Source of the DNA: Lachnospiraceae bacterium
GTDB lineage: Bacteria > Bacillota > Clostridia > Lachnospirales > Lachnospiraceae
DNA: 64,000 bases
Assembly: GCA_015058015.1 (NCBI GenBank)
Contig: SVDM01000006.1
Span: 1 to 64,000 of the forward strand
Direction: 5' to 3'
The position numbers were made by a program, and so were the translations under genes. The notes under the pieces are model-generated. The model was given only the letters and a program-made list of their open reading frames with translations, did no database searches and was not told the DNA's origin. Of the stretch, positions 56,144-63,245 are shown one piece after another (position 1 is the first letter of the stretch; each line of letters opens with the position of its first letter).

Positions 56144-58159
56144 TTATTTAAAGAATGAGATTTCTTTATTGAGCTGATCGGCAACAACCTTCAGGGAATC
56201 TGCGGAAGAAGCAAGGGTTGTAACCGTTGCTGACAATTCTTCCATAGAAGCACCTGTCTCCTGTGATGATGCTGCATTTTGTTCACTGATAGCTGAAAGT
56301 GAGCACATAGCGTCTGATACCACGTTCTTTGCGGATACACAAGTTCCGGCATCCTGCTCGATACTCTTTACGCCATCGGCCGTTGATGATATATCCGAAA
56401 GCATTGTGTTGATTGCTTCAACAGTTGTAACAATAACTTCCTGCTGTTCTTCGTTCTCACGTTTAACCTCAGAAGCCATTGAAACCGTAGCCTGCGACTC
56501 ATTGAGAAGAACATCCATCTCAACTCTGATATCGTCTGCCATCTGTCTTGAGTCTTCTGCCAGTTTACCGATTTCTTCGGCAACAACTGAGAATCCACGT
56601 CCTGCCTCTCCTGCTCTTGCCGCCTCGATGGAAGCATTAAGGGATAGAAGATTGGTCTGGGTTGCGATTGAGGAGATTCCTTCAACCTTCTCATTAATTA
56701 CTTCAACCGCTCTACCTGTAGCACGAATCTTTTCAGTAATATCCATGATGGAGTCATTCATGCTCTGACTGGACTCCTGAAGTTTTGCAAGGGATTCAAC
56801 TGAATCGTTGCTTGCTTTCTTCATACGGTCTGTAAGGCTTGCCAAATCATCTGTACTGCTTTGTACACTGCCGGTAGCCACATCAATCTCTCCTACGCTT
56901 AAGGTTACGCTCTGAATCTCGTCAGCCTGCTGAGTTGCGCCGTTTGCAATATCCATAACTGCATTGGATACATCTTCTGCAGTAAGGGAAATCTGGTTAG
57001 CAGTCTCAGCCAAATCCTCTGATGAGTTATTAACGGATACTGAGGACTCCTTAATGCTTTGTACAATAGACGAAAGCTTATCAATAACGGTATTGGTATT
57101 ATTGATAATATCTCCGAATTCATCTTTTCTGTTAGTGTATTTATCAATGGGATGGAATTCACCCTCTGAGAGCTTGGTAACTGATTCATTAACAGCTTTA
57201 AGAGGACGAGTGAATGAGTTGGCCATTGATAAAGCTATAATAATACAAACAATAAGCATTACAACACCAAGGATAATTACAAAAATAACTGTTCTCATGG
57301 TGCTTTCCATAACTACGTCGTAATCAGCAACGGCAACAACAGTCCATCCTGTGGACTCTTCCTTCTGATAAGACATAATATATCTCTTACCGTTCATGGC
57401 TCCCATGGTAGTACCGCTTCCGCCGCTTTGTGCCAGCTTGTAGGCTTCAAGCATACTGTAATCCTCGAGATTATTAACATCTATATCGTATTCTGAATGA
57501 CCGATTAATGTTCCCTTTGCATCCAGGATAAATGCCTGCTCTTTTTTATTCTTATCAACAGCACTTTCCAGGAAATCATGCAGGAAAGTAAGCTGATAAC
57601 TTCTCTGTAATGTTGCTATTACTTTACCACTTGAATCTTTTACAGGAACAATTGGGAATATAGTAGCAGTTCCCGTTGTCTTGGAGGCAAATACCTCCGA
57701 AACAAGGGTTTCACCCTTCCAAGCCGCCTGGTAGTAACTACGATCGCTTATATTCTGAAGTTCACCGGATGAACGAACAATCTGTACCCCTTCCGGTCCT
57801 GTAAGAACTATGGAGTTATCTCCCTGCAAGGTGCTCTCAATATACTTTAACCAGTTGACCATGTCATCATTGTTTCTGGAACTTTCGTCCTGAACATAAC
57901 GGATTACGTATGGACTGGCCGCTGCAGTTTTTAGCGCCTCTAACTGCTGATTAATTACATCCATATAAGACTGGGTAACAACCTTGGCTTTTTGAATATT
58001 GGTTGCTTCCGCATCTTCACGGGCCTTGCCCACTGATGTAATTGCACTTATTATCAGCGAAATCCCCAGAGGAACGATACATATAAGAATCATAACCGTA
58101 ATAAGTTTAGCCTTTACGCCGGAAAGACCCTTACTATTTTGTGTACTTTTCTTGCTCAT
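56144..58159 (-). CDS. Methyl-accepting chemotaxis protein, Cache-type sensor
   Basis: A 671-residue chemoreceptor with TM1 (about 15-40), double-Cache-like sensor (about 42-285), TM2 (about 290-312), HAMP (about 313-370) and a helical signalling domain whose tip reads [20 protein letters not shown]. Its sensor differs strongly from that of the receptor at 1891, so it probably senses another ligand. AAGGAG precedes the ATG. It is monocistronic. Confidence 0.93.
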
Positions 58160-58464
58160 ACAAAGTCTCCTTTTTGCTCATATAGTATTAATAATATACA
58201 AATAACTATCATTGTGATTTTAGCATATTTACTGAACAAAATAAATACTAATTTGGAATAATTTGATAATTTCACTCAAATTTTATATTTAAGCGTCAAT
58301 TTCGCACAATAACATACCAAATATGCTTTTGTTCTTCATCTTGTGGCGAAAATAAAGGGATTCAACAATATACTGTATTATTTAATAAAAAAAATAGCAG
58401 ATTTTGAGTTTTGGTATTAAGTATGTTCCACTTCATGACGATAATAATGATAACAAAAGAAAAA
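58160..58464. other. Left part of a 717-bp gene-free gap
   Basis: This A/T-rich stretch holds the ribosome site and leader of the chemoreceptor gene (minus strand) and, further right, the presumed promoter zone of the RNA that follows. I could not settle one promoter there: candidate -10 boxes are AT-rich and several. I see no ORF with a ribosome site. Confidence 0.6.
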
Positions 58465-58735
58465 AAGCTACGGAAGGCGTGTTTTTCAATGGATTGGCAT
58501 TGAAGGACGCGCCTAAATCAATGCCATTTTTGGTGGATGCGGGGTAACCCGTTCACATATAGGAGCCCTTTTGGGCATCTTCAGAATAGGTGATTTGTAT
58601 AATGGGAAGTCGGCGCTACAAGTAGGATACTTGGGGCGACCGACACTCCCTCAAATCTGCCGAACCATAGTAAACAATTACGAAAAGAATGATAATACAC
58701 CTATACCCTCGGACAGAAGTTTTCGAGGGTATTTC
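58465..58735 (+). ncRNA. Structured noncoding RNA candidate, possible raiA-type
   Basis: A compact array of helices lies in gene-free DNA. Stem A 58475-58482 with 58507-58514 (8 bp, one G-U) plus inner CAATG/CATTG; hairpin CGGG-gtaa-CCCG (58540-58551); hairpin GCCC-tttt-GGGC (58565-58576); a long arm stacking four helices, GATTTG/CAAATC (58592/58652), GGGA/TCCC (58604/58647), GTCGG/CCGAC (58609/58640), CAAGTA/TACTTG (58619/58628). It ends in a terminator-like stem 58703-58711 with 58724-58732 and TTCCC. No codon-like reading frame fits. Size and region resemble raiA RNAs of Clostridia, but I cannot verify that; 6S, SRP and RNase P hallmarks are absent. Confidence 0.6.
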
Positions 58736-58876
58736 CCGTGTGTTAAATAGACGAATTTTAAGCCCGATTAGGTAGTAATTGTTTATTTTTTACATGATTT
58801 GTAGTATAATATTTGCGCAAAGAAGATAGAACCCATCGGACTAAATATATAGAGTCATTTATGGAGGCGATGTGTA

Positions 58877-60034
58877 ATGAGCAACAACAATTCACTATTC
58901 GGTAATACACCGGGCATCTCCGGAATGGTAGGCGACTATAACTCAATCAAAAACGGTAGTTACGGCAAATTGATGAAGTCCTACTACAAGAAAGAGAATA
59001 CTTCCGCTTCAAAATCATCTAACAGAGCCAACAAAGACAATGTAATAGATAAAATGATTAAGGAGCGTAAGAATCCTACTCTCTCAAAGGAAGTAACCCA
59101 GGCAAACAGCAAGTTGTCTGATTCCACCAGAACCCTTATGTCTTCTCTTAGTGCCCTCCAGAGCAAGGACACATACAAGGATAAGGCTTCTGTTACCAAG
59201 GCCTTGAAGGAATACGTATCTTCATACAATGATGCTGTAGAATCATCCAAAAAGACCAGCCTCACCAATATCTCCAAGAATATTGCAGGAATTATGGATG
59301 CCACCAGGGAGAACGCCGACGCATTGAAAGATCTTGGTATCAGTATGAACAGTGACGGTACCCTGACTTTAAGCGAAGAAGCGCTTGCAACTGCTGACAC
59401 AGGCAAAATTCAGGAACTCTTCGACGGAGAAGCTGCCATGAGTTATGGCTCAAAAGCAGCCAGCAGACTCAACCGTGCCTCAGGCTACATCAATGAGGCC
59501 AATGCGGATACGGCTGCCGAGGATGCTTCCAAGGAAGTAGCTGCAACCAATTCCAGAAGTCTTATGGACACATTAAAGAGCGTCAAATCAGATGAACTCT
59601 TTGCCACCACCAAAGACGCGGAAGGCAATGAGCGATATGATACAGAAAAGATTATGTCGGCTACGGAAGATATGATAAAGTATTATAATGCGACATTAGG
59701 CGCTGCAAGGAATACAGGGACTGTAGGTGTAACCGGAAATCTTTCTTCCATGGTTCAAAAGACCGCAAAAAGTGCAGGCGAATTAAGCGAACTGGGAATA
59801 ACAGTTGGTAGCGATGGCAGATTAAGTCTTAACGAGGATACCTTTAGATCCGCTGATATGTCTAAGGCTAAAGAAACCCTTGGCAAATATGCAACTACTA
59901 TAGAATCCGATGCCAGACTTCTTAACTACTACTCACAAAACAGTAGCGAAGCAACTACCGGATATTCTGCAGACGGGGGCTATAATCTTAACACCGCCGA
60001 TGTGGTAGCACAGTTATATGACAGCATGCAATAG
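58877..60034 (+). CDS. FliD-C-like protein with duplicated unit
   Basis: A 385-residue protein, Ser/Ala/Lys-rich and helical. Two similar blocks, about 75-190 and about 240-355, each end with an LGI-type motif followed by a short strand and D/E residues (LGISMNSDGTLTLSEEAL and LGITVGSDGRLSLNEDTF), which is the C-terminal signature of flagellar cap protein FliD. N-terminal FliD regions are not evident, so it is not a normal cap. Flagellar assembly or a cap-like accessory role is inferred. GGAGG precedes the ATG. A TATAAT (58805-58810) stands upstream, without a firm -35. Confidence 0.75.
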   Translation: MSNNNSLFGNTPGISGMVGDYNSIKNGSYGKLMKSYYKKENTSASKSSNRANKDNVIDKMIKERKNPTLSKEVTQANSKLSDSTRTLMSSLSALQSKDTYKDKASVTKALKEYVSSYNDAVESSKKTSLTNISKNIAGIMDATRENADALKDLGISMNSDGTLTLSEEALATADTGKIQELFDGEAAMSYGSKAASRLNRASGYINEANADTAAEDASKEVAATNSRSLMDTLKSVKSDELFATTKDAEGNERYDTEKIMSATEDMIKYYNATLGAARNTGTVGVTGNLSSMVQKTAKSAGELSELGITVGSDGRLSLNEDTFRSADMSKAKETLGKYATTIESDARLLNYYSQNSSEATTGYSADGGYNLNTADVVAQLYDSMQ

Positions 60035-60079: not shown

Positions 60080-62287
60080 TTATGTATATGTGCTAATTCT
60101 TATGTCGTTATATAAGCCGACTGTTACAGCGCCACCCTTTGAAGTGGAATAAATCCTACATCCTGTCTTTCTTAACCGGTCAATAGTTTCCTTGTGGGGA
60201 TGACCATAAGAATTATGCAAGGCACAGGATATCACCGACACCTCCGGTTTAATACGCTTCAGTAATTCTATGGGGGTGGAATTGCGAGAACCATGATGTG
60301 CAACTTTTAAAACATCTACATCTTCAAGCAATTCGGATTCCAAAAGCTGCTCTTCCCCCTCGCCTTCAACATCCCCGGTAAACAATAGCTTTCTTCCTTT
60401 TTCACTCATTTCCGTAACCAGGGACGCTTCATTGTCTGATAACTTTGAGTCCCCCCTTGGGGCCAGTATTTTAAAGACAGTATCCCCTTCAGAAAAACAG
60501 GTTCCGGTTTCAGCATAAGTGATTTGAGCGTTTTTGTCTGAATTTTCCCTCATGTCGGAAATCTTTTTCTGTATTTCGACCATCTTTTCATCTTTTGCTT
60601 GTACTTTTGCAATCGTGATGTCTTTTACGATAATTCGTGACGCCATTATTTCATCCAAAGCATTAATATGGTCAGCGTCAGGGTGGGTCAGTATCATCCT
60701 ATCAATCTGTTTTATCCCGGAATACTTAAGAAAGGGAATAATTCTTTTCTCTCCCACTCCCGATACGTTTCCCGAGCCTACATCAATCATTACCACGGCG
60801 CCATTTGCACATTGTATTACAATGGAATCTCCCTGTCCCACATCCAGAAAGGTTACAGTGGTTACACCAGTGGGTTTTATCAGTAATATAGACAAAATTG
60901 CCAACAGTGTCATTAGATAAAATCCTGCAATTACAGGTTTCTTTCTCGTGAAAATCAAATCTTTCCTTAATACGGAGAGGTGTATCGCCCCTATAAGGCC
61001 TGTATAGTAGAGGATTACAAATACGATACAGGGTTTCCCTACAATTATCTCCGATCCGGGAAGATTCGCTAAAGCTTCCGTAATACCATTAACTATAATT
61101 AACAATACTTTCGAAATCCAAAATACACCGTCAAACCCCAGGGTAAGTCCTACTATTCCACCCAACGCCGATGCCGTAACAAGAAGCGGCACGATAGGAA
61201 TCACCAGAAGATTGGCTATTACGGAATAGGTAGGAATCTCATAATAAAAGATGGCTAGAATCGGTAGAATAAACAGCCACAATACAAAGCCCGATAGAAC
61301 CCTGCCATATATTTTATTCTCCATTTCCGGAACAAGGGGTATAACCCCCACTACACCCAGCGTCGTCCCGAAGGAGAGTATAAATGTGGGATTAAAGAGC
61401 ATGGCATTTTCACCCAGAAGAATCAGTATCGCAGCGGCAGAAAGCGATGTAAGACCGTCGGAACACCTGCCCAAGACTTCTCCTCCCATTAAAATAATGA
61501 ACATAATAAAGGCGCGAATAGCAGATACGCTCAAACCCGACATCACCACATATCCCAAAACCACCATGGTTGATATAACCGCCCCTTCAGTTCTGGTTAG
61601 AAGGAGTTTTCTAAGGAGTTTAAATAACCCCAGCCCTATCATTGTTATATGCAGACCTGATACCGTAATAATGTGAATTATGCCTGCATTCCTGTATATG
61701 TCCTTTCTCTCATGTGTCAGCTCTGTTTTGTCCCCCAAAAGCATGGCTTTTACAAGGGCTTTCTCGTCGGGGCTTAATAAAGAACGGTCTATTACTTCAG
61801 ATATTCCTCCTCTTAAACTATAAATTGCGGATAGTATTCCGCCCTTCCCCTCGTTATTTACTTTCTCTACGCTTCCTTCCACTTGAAAGGAAAAACCCAG
61901 ACTCTTATAATACTTTCTTTCATCGAACTGTCCCGGATTAGTTGCAGCGGGAAATTCAGCCACTTCTCCCGTGGCATAAACAAAAGCCCCCATATTAATT
62001 TGCTCATTTCCTTTGGAATAAAACAGAATACTACCTGCAAGGTAATGGTTTGAATCCATTAGAATATACGAATTGTCTAAAGTAAGAATTGTCTTTCCCT
62101 TAAGGGATTTTGACTTTGATACGGTACCCACCAGACTAACAAGGCACCCGGGTTGTATCTTTTTTTCAATGGGATAGGTCTTATAAAGGCCTACCGTAAC
62201 GCTTTTTATCAGCAAAAAGCCTATCAGGCATATAGCCATAAGGCAAATGGGACGTGCCCGAAGCCGCCCCACAATCTTTTCAATCAA
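60080..62287 (-). CDS. comEC: ComEC/Rec2 DNA-uptake channel protein
   Basis: A 735-residue membrane protein: N-terminal TMs, a DUF4131-like extracytoplasmic part, the Competence-domain helices (about 200-480), and a C-terminal metallo-beta-lactamase-like domain with THPDADH (about 537) and AHHGSRNS (about 670). ComEC forms the DNA translocation pore in naturally competent bacteria. The gene follows the GerMN gene by 16 nt. No comEA was seen in the window. Confidence 0.93.
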   Translation of the reverse strand: MIEKIVGRLRARPICLMAICLIGFLLIKSVTVGLYKTYPIEKKIQPGCLVSLVGTVSKSKSLKGKTILTLDNSYILMDSNHYLAGSILFYSKGNEQINMGAFVYATGEVAEFPAATNPGQFDERKYYKSLGFSFQVEGSVEKVNNEGKGGILSAIYSLRGGISEVIDRSLLSPDEKALVKAMLLGDKTELTHERKDIYRNAGIIHIITVSGLHITMIGLGLFKLLRKLLLTRTEGAVISTMVVLGYVVMSGLSVSAIRAFIMFIILMGGEVLGRCSDGLTSLSAAAILILLGENAMLFNPTFILSFGTTLGVVGVIPLVPEMENKIYGRVLSGFVLWLFILPILAIFYYEIPTYSVIANLLVIPIVPLLVTASALGGIVGLTLGFDGVFWISKVLLIIVNGITEALANLPGSEIIVGKPCIVFVILYYTGLIGAIHLSVLRKDLIFTRKKPVIAGFYLMTLLAILSILLIKPTGVTTVTFLDVGQGDSIVIQCANGAVVMIDVGSGNVSGVGEKRIIPFLKYSGIKQIDRMILTHPDADHINALDEIMASRIIVKDITIAKVQAKDEKMVEIQKKISDMRENSDKNAQITYAETGTCFSEGDTVFKILAPRGDSKLSDNEASLVTEMSEKGRKLLFTGDVEGEGEEQLLESELLEDVDVLKVAHHGSRNSTPIELLKRIKPEVSVISCALHNSYGHPHKETIDRLRKTGCRIYSTSKGGAVTVGLYNDIRISTYT

Positions 62288-62303: not shown

Positions 62304-63221
62304 TTATATCTCAAGATTACGCATAAAAGGCTGATTAAGTGGAATCTGCTCCATATATTTAACATCCGAATTGGAATCAATTGATATCTGTACTTTACTT
62401 ACCGATGGAAGTTCCGACAAAGTATTGACGATAGAATATATGGTCACTTGAGGATCTACCATTGGAGCTCCCCGCAAAAAGCCAGCGTCGAAATTAACAT
62501 AACATATGCCTTCCTTAACAGTAATGCCAAGAAGCTTGGTGCCATTGGCCACCACCGGCAGTTTATCCGAATCCTTCGGTCCCGCTAAGAGCTGTTCTAT
62601 AACAACTCTTTCAGGAGAAACTGCAGTTTTATAATGAAGGCTCCTATCCTCCGTCTCTAACTTGTCACCTGCTATAGAGGCAAAATACAGCTTAACTTTA
62701 GCTTCCTTGGTAACAGACAAAGTATCCGGGGAGATGTCCGCAAAAGATTCCGCTTTCATCCCTCCCATAGCCACGTTGTTGGCATCGGTTAAAGGCTTGT
62801 CTTCTACCGTAAAAAATACTGTTTCAACCTCATTAAGCTGCACCAGAGTCTTTACTATAGCAGCTCTAATTGTAATCTCCTCATATTGACCCAGCTTTAA
62901 GTATCCCTGTTTAAAATCAAGAGTAACCGTTGTTCCTTCTATCTTGTAATCCTTTAATTCTACTCCTCCGCTAATGGGGGGCACACAGGACTTGGCACCG
63001 GACACCGATGATTGCAGGTTATTAATAAGTTCATCCACCTTGGCGTTGGCATCATCCGCTCCGCTTTTTAGATTATAGGGCACAGGAACAACCGAGATAT
63101 CATCAGACCCCACATAGTATACAAAAAAGTCTGCATTTTTCTCGGTGCCGCCACAGGCCGTAAGCCCTACGCAAAGGGCAAAACAAAGCATTAAATTAAA
63201 TACAAATTTTAATTTCTTCAT
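62304..63221 (-). CDS. GerMN-domain lipoprotein
   Basis: A 305-residue lipoprotein. Signal peptide with lipobox LTAC near residue 23, then two GerMN-type domains (about 55-155 and 175-290), each with the strand-helix plan and the LNEVETVFFTV and LSELPSVSKVQISID segments. Such proteins act in the envelope; the GerM prototype is a spore/sporulation factor. The frame opens at 63245; ATG 63221 is preferred because it gives a proper signal peptide. The kinase gene precedes it. Confidence 0.85.
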   Translation of the reverse strand: MKKLKFVFNLMLCFALCVGLTACGGTEKNADFFVYYVGSDDISVVPVPYNLKSGADDANAKVDELINNLQSSVSGAKSCVPPISGGVELKDYKIEGTTVTLDFKQGYLKLGQYEEITIRAAIVKTLVQLNEVETVFFTVEDKPLTDANNVAMGGMKAESFADISPDTLSVTKEAKVKLYFASIAGDKLETEDRSLHYKTAVSPERVVIEQLLAGPKDSDKLPVVANGTKLLGITVKEGICYVNFDAGFLRGAPMVDPQVTIYSIVNTLSELPSVSKVQISIDSNSDVKYMEQIPLNQPFMRNLEI

Positions 63222-63245
63222 ATTGATACCTGTCCATTCCAGCAT

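Follow-up and report, generated by a model that had tools for sequence, protein, structure and literature searches.

A probable sigma28-transcribed, CsrA-binding leader RNA family of motility-associated genes in Lachnospiraceae

The analyzed window, a 64,000-nt stretch of contig SVDM01000006.1 from a Lachnospiraceae bacterium, contains a 717-bp gap without genes (58160–58876) that is flanked by a chemoreceptor and a FliD-like gene. The left neighbor is a dCache chemoreceptor encoded on the minus strand (56144–58159). The right neighbor, on the plus strand (58877–60034), encodes a 385-aa protein with a weak match to FliD, whose homologues match FliD_C; its Shine-Dalgarno (SD) sequence is AUGGAGG, and its ortholog in genome G001 is 63% identical. 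No ORFs of at least 60 aa were found on the plus strand inside the gap. Beside the motility genes, the minus strand encodes an ordinary ComEC-like competence protein (60080–62287) and an equally ordinary GerMN-domain lipoprotein-like protein (62304–63245). A first-pass annotation had placed a structured RNA of about 270 nt between motility-type genes in this gap, and both the neighbors and the presence of structure were borne out.

The plus strand of 58465–58735 folded with a minimum free energy (MFE) of -103.3 kcal/mol versus -69.3 ± 4.8 kcal/mol for 200 dinucleotide shuffles (z = -7.05; 0/200 as good), and the fold of the minus strand was weaker (z = -5.2). The MFE structure comprised a 17-bp 5' hairpin (58475–58514), a branched arm with the closing helix 58529–58538/58655–58664 and several stacked helices within it, and a separate 11-bp hairpin at 58703–58732, which agrees with the hairpins and stacked arm described in the first-pass annotation. 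When folded alone, the 5' hairpin gave a z of -5.8, the isolated 5' domain (69-nt fold) -6.2, and the extension pieces 58514–58680 and 58514–58735 gave -3.8 and -4.6, respectively. The Rfam scan of the whole window at the gathering level returned no match, and the tRNA/tmRNA scan found none, in line with the earlier statement that the standard housekeeping RNAs do not match. BLAST against phages and plasmids gave no match either.

A BLAST search against 60 relatives yielded a single short match, to the 5' hairpin, and the same search against 397 Lachnospiraceae genomes yielded a cluster of short matches at query positions 23–68. By eye, the clustered matches followed the pattern GCUAYGGANGGCGU-UUUUUCAAUGGAWUG-...-ACGCC-UUUUUU, with GCCGATAT upstream. 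The matches at query positions 1–37 and 217–270 were A-rich or low-complexity noise, and the isolated matches L075, L079, and L100 were judged to be due to chance. The covariance model R1 matched 66 of the 397 genomes at E ≤ 0.05 and 39 at E ≤ 1e-3, matches from R1 and R2 being biased toward the model. The window copy, which is in the R1 training set, scored 65.7 bits at 58461–58514 on the plus strand. Matches scoring above 29 bits numbered 53; of these, 48 were retained and five were set aside as unlike members (L152 may belong), so that the invariance of GGA in the family is partly built in. Several R1/R2 matches (L165, L171, L172, L174, L209–L213, and L215) were judged to be ordinary terminators; they lacked the paired motifs or the sigma28 site.

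A second model, of 44 sequences, was run on 196 genomes of the order and gave clear members in Lachnospiraceae; in other families, L204 (f4) and L206 (f2) were plausible members, and most other outside matches resembled ordinary terminators. The carriers named by an independent pattern scan were Lachnospiraceae and one uncultured Clostridiales MAG, some of them from the rumen. Altogether, the covariance models recovered roughly 60 Lachnospiraceae homologues, with a few more from other families of the same order. In G218, nine R1 matches (L104, L155–L158, L161, and L163 among them) preceded different genes, mostly for unannotated motility-type proteins. In the synteny check, the region preceding the orthologous gene did not contain the element in either G001 or G030.

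The covariation test among related Clostridia that the first-pass annotation had proposed gave a strong result for the 5' domain (58461–58514). In the alignment of 44 sequences to R1, which was fitted to the structure and is hence biased toward it, 95.3% of cells were paired and double changes occurred in 12 of 16 pairs; double-changed cells numbered 118 versus 31 in shuffles, and all slid controls collapsed. The lower-stem positions showed four to six pair types, which is hard to obtain from fitting alone. The 10-sequence seed agreed with this result (94% of cells paired, six pairs with double changes), and the stem equivalent to the 17-bp hairpin of the window covaried in the 44 homologues. 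Conservation starts near 58461, slightly earlier than the previously proposed start at 58465, and only 58461–58514, the first ~55 nt, is the conserved element as judged from the sequence comparisons. The first-pass annotation had taken ~270 nt as one RNA; it had also overlooked the sigma28 promoter and the paired A-N-GGA motifs described below, the features that hint at function. The covarying domain is almost certainly a real conserved RNA family.

Upstream of the element, a sigma28-type promoter was read in the sequence at 58418–58444 on the plus strand, with a -35 TAAG (58418–58421), N16, and a -10 ACGATAA (58438–58444); the transcript would be expected to start near 58450. The sigma28 consensus of Butyrivibrio fibrisolvens is TAAA-N16-17-MCGATAa (PMC3720852), and the TAAG-N16-ACGATAA of the window fits this consensus. 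The window promoter likewise conforms to the sigma28 regulon pattern TAAA-N15-17-(M/C)CGATA just upstream of the element, and its position is of the type seen in the homologues. Within 60 nt upstream, 75% of the 48 copies had at least 7/8 of the sigma28 -10 GCCGATAT versus 6.8% of shuffles, and 8/8 matches were found in 40% of copies versus 0.5% of shuffles. This -10, which lies outside the covariance model, was mostly located 1–19 nt upstream of the model start. A FliA/WhiG sigma factor is encoded in the window's genome. As a separate observation, a conserved box, ACCGTCTNTTCGTGACATNG, occurred ~30–70 nt upstream of several sigma28 -10s (L065, L104, L195, and L200); it is possibly a transcription-factor site.

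The element carries two A-N-GGA motifs. In the window, site 1 (ACGGA, 58470–58474, plus strand) lies 5' of the stem and is unpaired in the 69-nt fold but predicted to be paired when the full 293-nt transcript is folded. Site 2 (AUGGA, 58489–58493, plus strand) lies within the 17-bp hairpin, its GGA 19 nt after that of site 1, and in an alternative fold it can form an ANGGAN hexaloop with UCA/UGG as the closing pairs. In the homologues, site 1 read GCUANGGA and site 2 UUCAANGGAWUGA; all four bases occurred at N in both sites, and the A was kept in 39/40 (site 1) and 38/40 (site 2) of the non-training copies. The GGA-GGA distance was 17–21 nt in all homologues, which falls within the 10–63 nt (optimum about 18) used here to define a dual CsrA site. 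The site 2 hexaloop can be closed by UCA/UGA, and its closing pairs switched together (A-U to G-C, C-G, or U-G; C-G to G-C or U-A), with compensatory closures CGG/CCG in L164 and L170, UC/GA in L166 and L104, and UCU/GGA in L206. The hexaloop was closed in 54 of 59 sequences versus a maximum of 50 in 2000 permutations, kinship among sequences being ignored. CsrA/RsmE makes its contacts with an ANGGAN hexaloop at the A and GGA and spans sites that are 10–63 nt apart (PMC7652899), and the Campylobacter jejuni flaA leader has ANGGA hexaloops with 21-nt spacing (PMC4894983). Both the ANGGAN hairpin loop and the spacing of the present element follow these rules; as a pair, the motifs resemble a site at which the flagellar regulator CsrA docks, and the element is very probably a CsrA ligand.

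Site 2 takes part in two different structures. In the long stem its A, N, and first G are paired, whereas the short hexaloop hairpin UUCA-ANGGAW-UGAA leaves these three bases free. The N of site 2 covaried with its long-stem partner (columns 41/65; columns 40–42 pair with 64–66), and since the hexaloop closures covary as well, two folds, each constrained and mutually exclusive at the tip, are indicated. A U-tract 3' of the stem was present in 42/48 homologues and absent from the window copy. An SD-led ORF followed in 55/61 copies, at a distance of no more than 120 nt in 51/61 and no more than 40 nt in 30/61; in most copies the element was located after a sigma28 promoter and before the ribosome-binding site of a gene. 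The downstream products were mostly unannotated, with some matches to LytTR regulators (genes after L132/L136-type copies, L164, and L170), to FliD_C (L218) and, weakly, to DUF6033 (L143). The CsrA hexaloop and the terminator-like stem as predicted alternative folds in most copies suggest CsrA-controlled attenuation.

Another structured RNA, apparently uncatalogued, was observed at some of these loci. It consists of CCGCUCGGACCUUUC..GGAGAGCGG, followed by GCAGCY..UGACUGACAGA..RGCUGC, directly 5' of the SD GAAAGGAG. It is located between the element and the start codon in L161, L186, L203, L217, L162, L127, L148, L141, L166, L146, and L134, and at a separate site further downstream in L132. In 12 sequences, 96.6% of cells were paired, with 27 double-changed cells versus 8.8 in shuffles, and the scanned loci had no Rfam match. 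In many copies, though not in all, its loop CCUUUC could base-pair with the GAAAGG of the SD. This second RNA looks like a riboswitch or a protein-binding leader.

Genes for csrA were found in 38 of the 39 carrier genomes (E ≤ 1e-3) versus 210/397 genomes overall (Fisher 1e-10); the sole carrier without csrA was G269, whose match resembles an ordinary terminator. Flagellin was encoded in 213/397 genomes, nearly the same set as csrA, and the co-occurrence therefore reflects an association with motility rather than with CsrA itself. The window's genome has a fliW-csrA cluster.

In the window copy, the promoter, site 1, the stem, and site 2 are intact, and the next start codon lies ~360 nt past the hairpin. 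Its extension (58515–58702, plus strand) is predicted, on folding energy z only, to contain the branched arm 58529–58664 with a hairpin at 58609–58644 that displays GGA in its loop (58625–58627). In the MFE fold, the 3' hairpin (58703–58732, plus strand) with the weak U-tail UAUUUCCC is a possible transcript end; the consensus scan did not call it a terminator. A tblastn search with the downstream proteins of the homologues gave chance matches only, and a broken coding gene in the extension was rejected. At 58802–58810 on the plus strand, TAGTATAAT, missed by the promoter consensus scan, is a possible separate housekeeping promoter; a similar GTAGTATAATAT lies upstream of the G001 ortholog, itself without the element, and the downstream FliD-like gene may have its own promoter. 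At that G001 locus (L061, ~1950–2010), reading by eye revealed a hag-like dual CsrA-type leader with an AGAAC-ACGGAU-GUUCU hairpin, in which the GGA precedes that of an ACGGAGG SD by 21 nt; the corresponding SD in the window is that given above. The window's genome also has a second, typical copy of the element, with GCCGATAA, AAGGA, and ACGGA, 20 nt upstream of a 265-aa ORF. Because the U-tract of the window copy is gone and an extension has been added, this copy is more likely to act as a long CsrA-binding leader or a CsrA decoy, and the window RNA is best read as such a derived member of the family.

Judged from these sequence features, the members of the family are probably leader RNAs of Lachnospiraceae motility-associated genes, transcribed through sigma28 and bound by CsrA. 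A single CsrA dimer would connect site 1 on the 5' side of the stem with site 2 at the hairpin tip. The stem and U-tract resemble an intrinsic terminator in most copies, and since the two sites flank the 5' arm of this stem, a bridging dimer on the nascent RNA would compete with it, holding the short hexaloop fold and hampering the long terminator stem. In this way, the level at which late motility genes are expressed could be set by the free CsrA that FliW and flagellin leave over. That antitermination is the main mode is a tentative proposal, which we put somewhat below even odds; the switch and its direction are likewise proposals. Still more tentative is the broader scheme of a multi-copy Lachnospirales RNA switch in which CsrA binding and the intrinsic terminator would be exclusive and free CsrA would antiterminate, or gate, the whole sigma28 regulon during elongation.

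The alternatives to a new conserved RNA were weighed against these results. The first-pass annotation had named raiA as a possible match, and this large structured RNA of Firmicutes would fit in size and phylum. However, the window element had no covariance-model match to raiA at the gathering level or in the permissive scan run on the gap with E values up to 10, which gave nothing real (best RsaD, E 0.66), and 14 homologous loci likewise had no gathering-level match and no related family in lax scans; that the element is raiA or another catalogued RNA is therefore practically ruled out. A chance fold of functionless G+C-rich hairpins would agree with the failure to find relatives of 58515–58735 in the 397 family genomes, and the fold of that part is supported by energy alone. 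For 58461–58514 such a fold was excluded by the z of about -7 for the whole stretch and the covariation in 44 sequences, and as an account of the locus it is extremely improbable.

The remaining alternatives concern function. The element might be a leader that binds some other ligand or protein, or simply an attenuator, with GGA serving otherwise, e.g., in a ribosome or anti-SD contact. The csrA association, inseparable from motility, leaves room for this, but the free N at both A-N-GGA sites, the 17–21 nt spacing, and the covarying ANGGAN hexaloop fit the CsrA/RsmE rules, and we regard it as quite unlikely. A stand-alone sRNA decoy, i.e., a short terminated sigma28 transcript (~60 nt; ~290 nt in the window) titrating CsrA in trans as a minimal CsrB/RsmZ-like RNA, is a less remote but still unlikely reading. 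It would draw on a promoter, a dual high-affinity-type site, and a U-tract within ~70 nt, on up to nine copies per genome, on the separation of the window copy from the next gene, and on the known titration of CsrA by a target leader, that of flaA (PMC4894983). An independent sRNA, however, would have no need of the short distance to an SD-led ORF seen in 51/61 copies, and GGA shows no enrichment in the extension of the window copy. The multi-GGA sponge of the CsrB/RsmZ type was rejected for the window RNA, in which GGA is at chance level (8 versus 7.1 expected). The CsrA-binding leader remains the preferred reading of the family.

To our knowledge, the CsrA regulon is largely unknown outside Gammaproteobacteria. 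The best-described motility target of CsrA in Firmicutes is the flagellin leader. A recognizable element with a sigma28 promoter would allow CsrA-controlled genes to be read from sequence in a dominant gut and rumen bacterial family and would name dozens of uncharacterized motility-linked proteins. It would also offer a test of CsrA acting on intrinsic termination.

Comparison with known systems demonstrated both likenesses and differences. The CsrB/CsrC and RsmX/Y/Z sponges also present GGA in hairpin loops; they carry many sites in long free-standing RNAs, whereas here one dual site lies upstream of a gene and no Rfam match was found. In the Legionella pneumophila gap operon, an A(N)GGA is hidden when the hairpin-terminator forms and becomes accessible in the fold bound by CsrA (PMC5338858). 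The role of CsrA through alternative folds in this anti-terminator is comparable; however, it lies within a coding sequence and acts on Rho-dependent termination, unlike the repeated leader with intrinsic-terminator features described here. The leaders of Bacillus subtilis hag and C. jejuni flaA, which belong to the CsrA-FliW flagellin checkpoint, share the dual CsrA-type sites in the leaders of motility genes. In these leaders the second site covers the SD and translation is blocked, although this is not so in all CsrA leaders. Here, a second site overlapping the SD was not found in the homologues. The SD comes after both sites, which border the 5' arm of the terminator-like stem, and the element is for this reason not filed as a hag/flaA-type leader but as one only working like it. 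A further difference is that one element recurs in front of many different genes. Such a repeated family is absent from Rfam 15 and was not found in a literature search of incomplete coverage. CsrA leaders of flagellin genes are already known; what is new is the repeated family with its built-in sigma28 promoter and terminator-like alternative fold.
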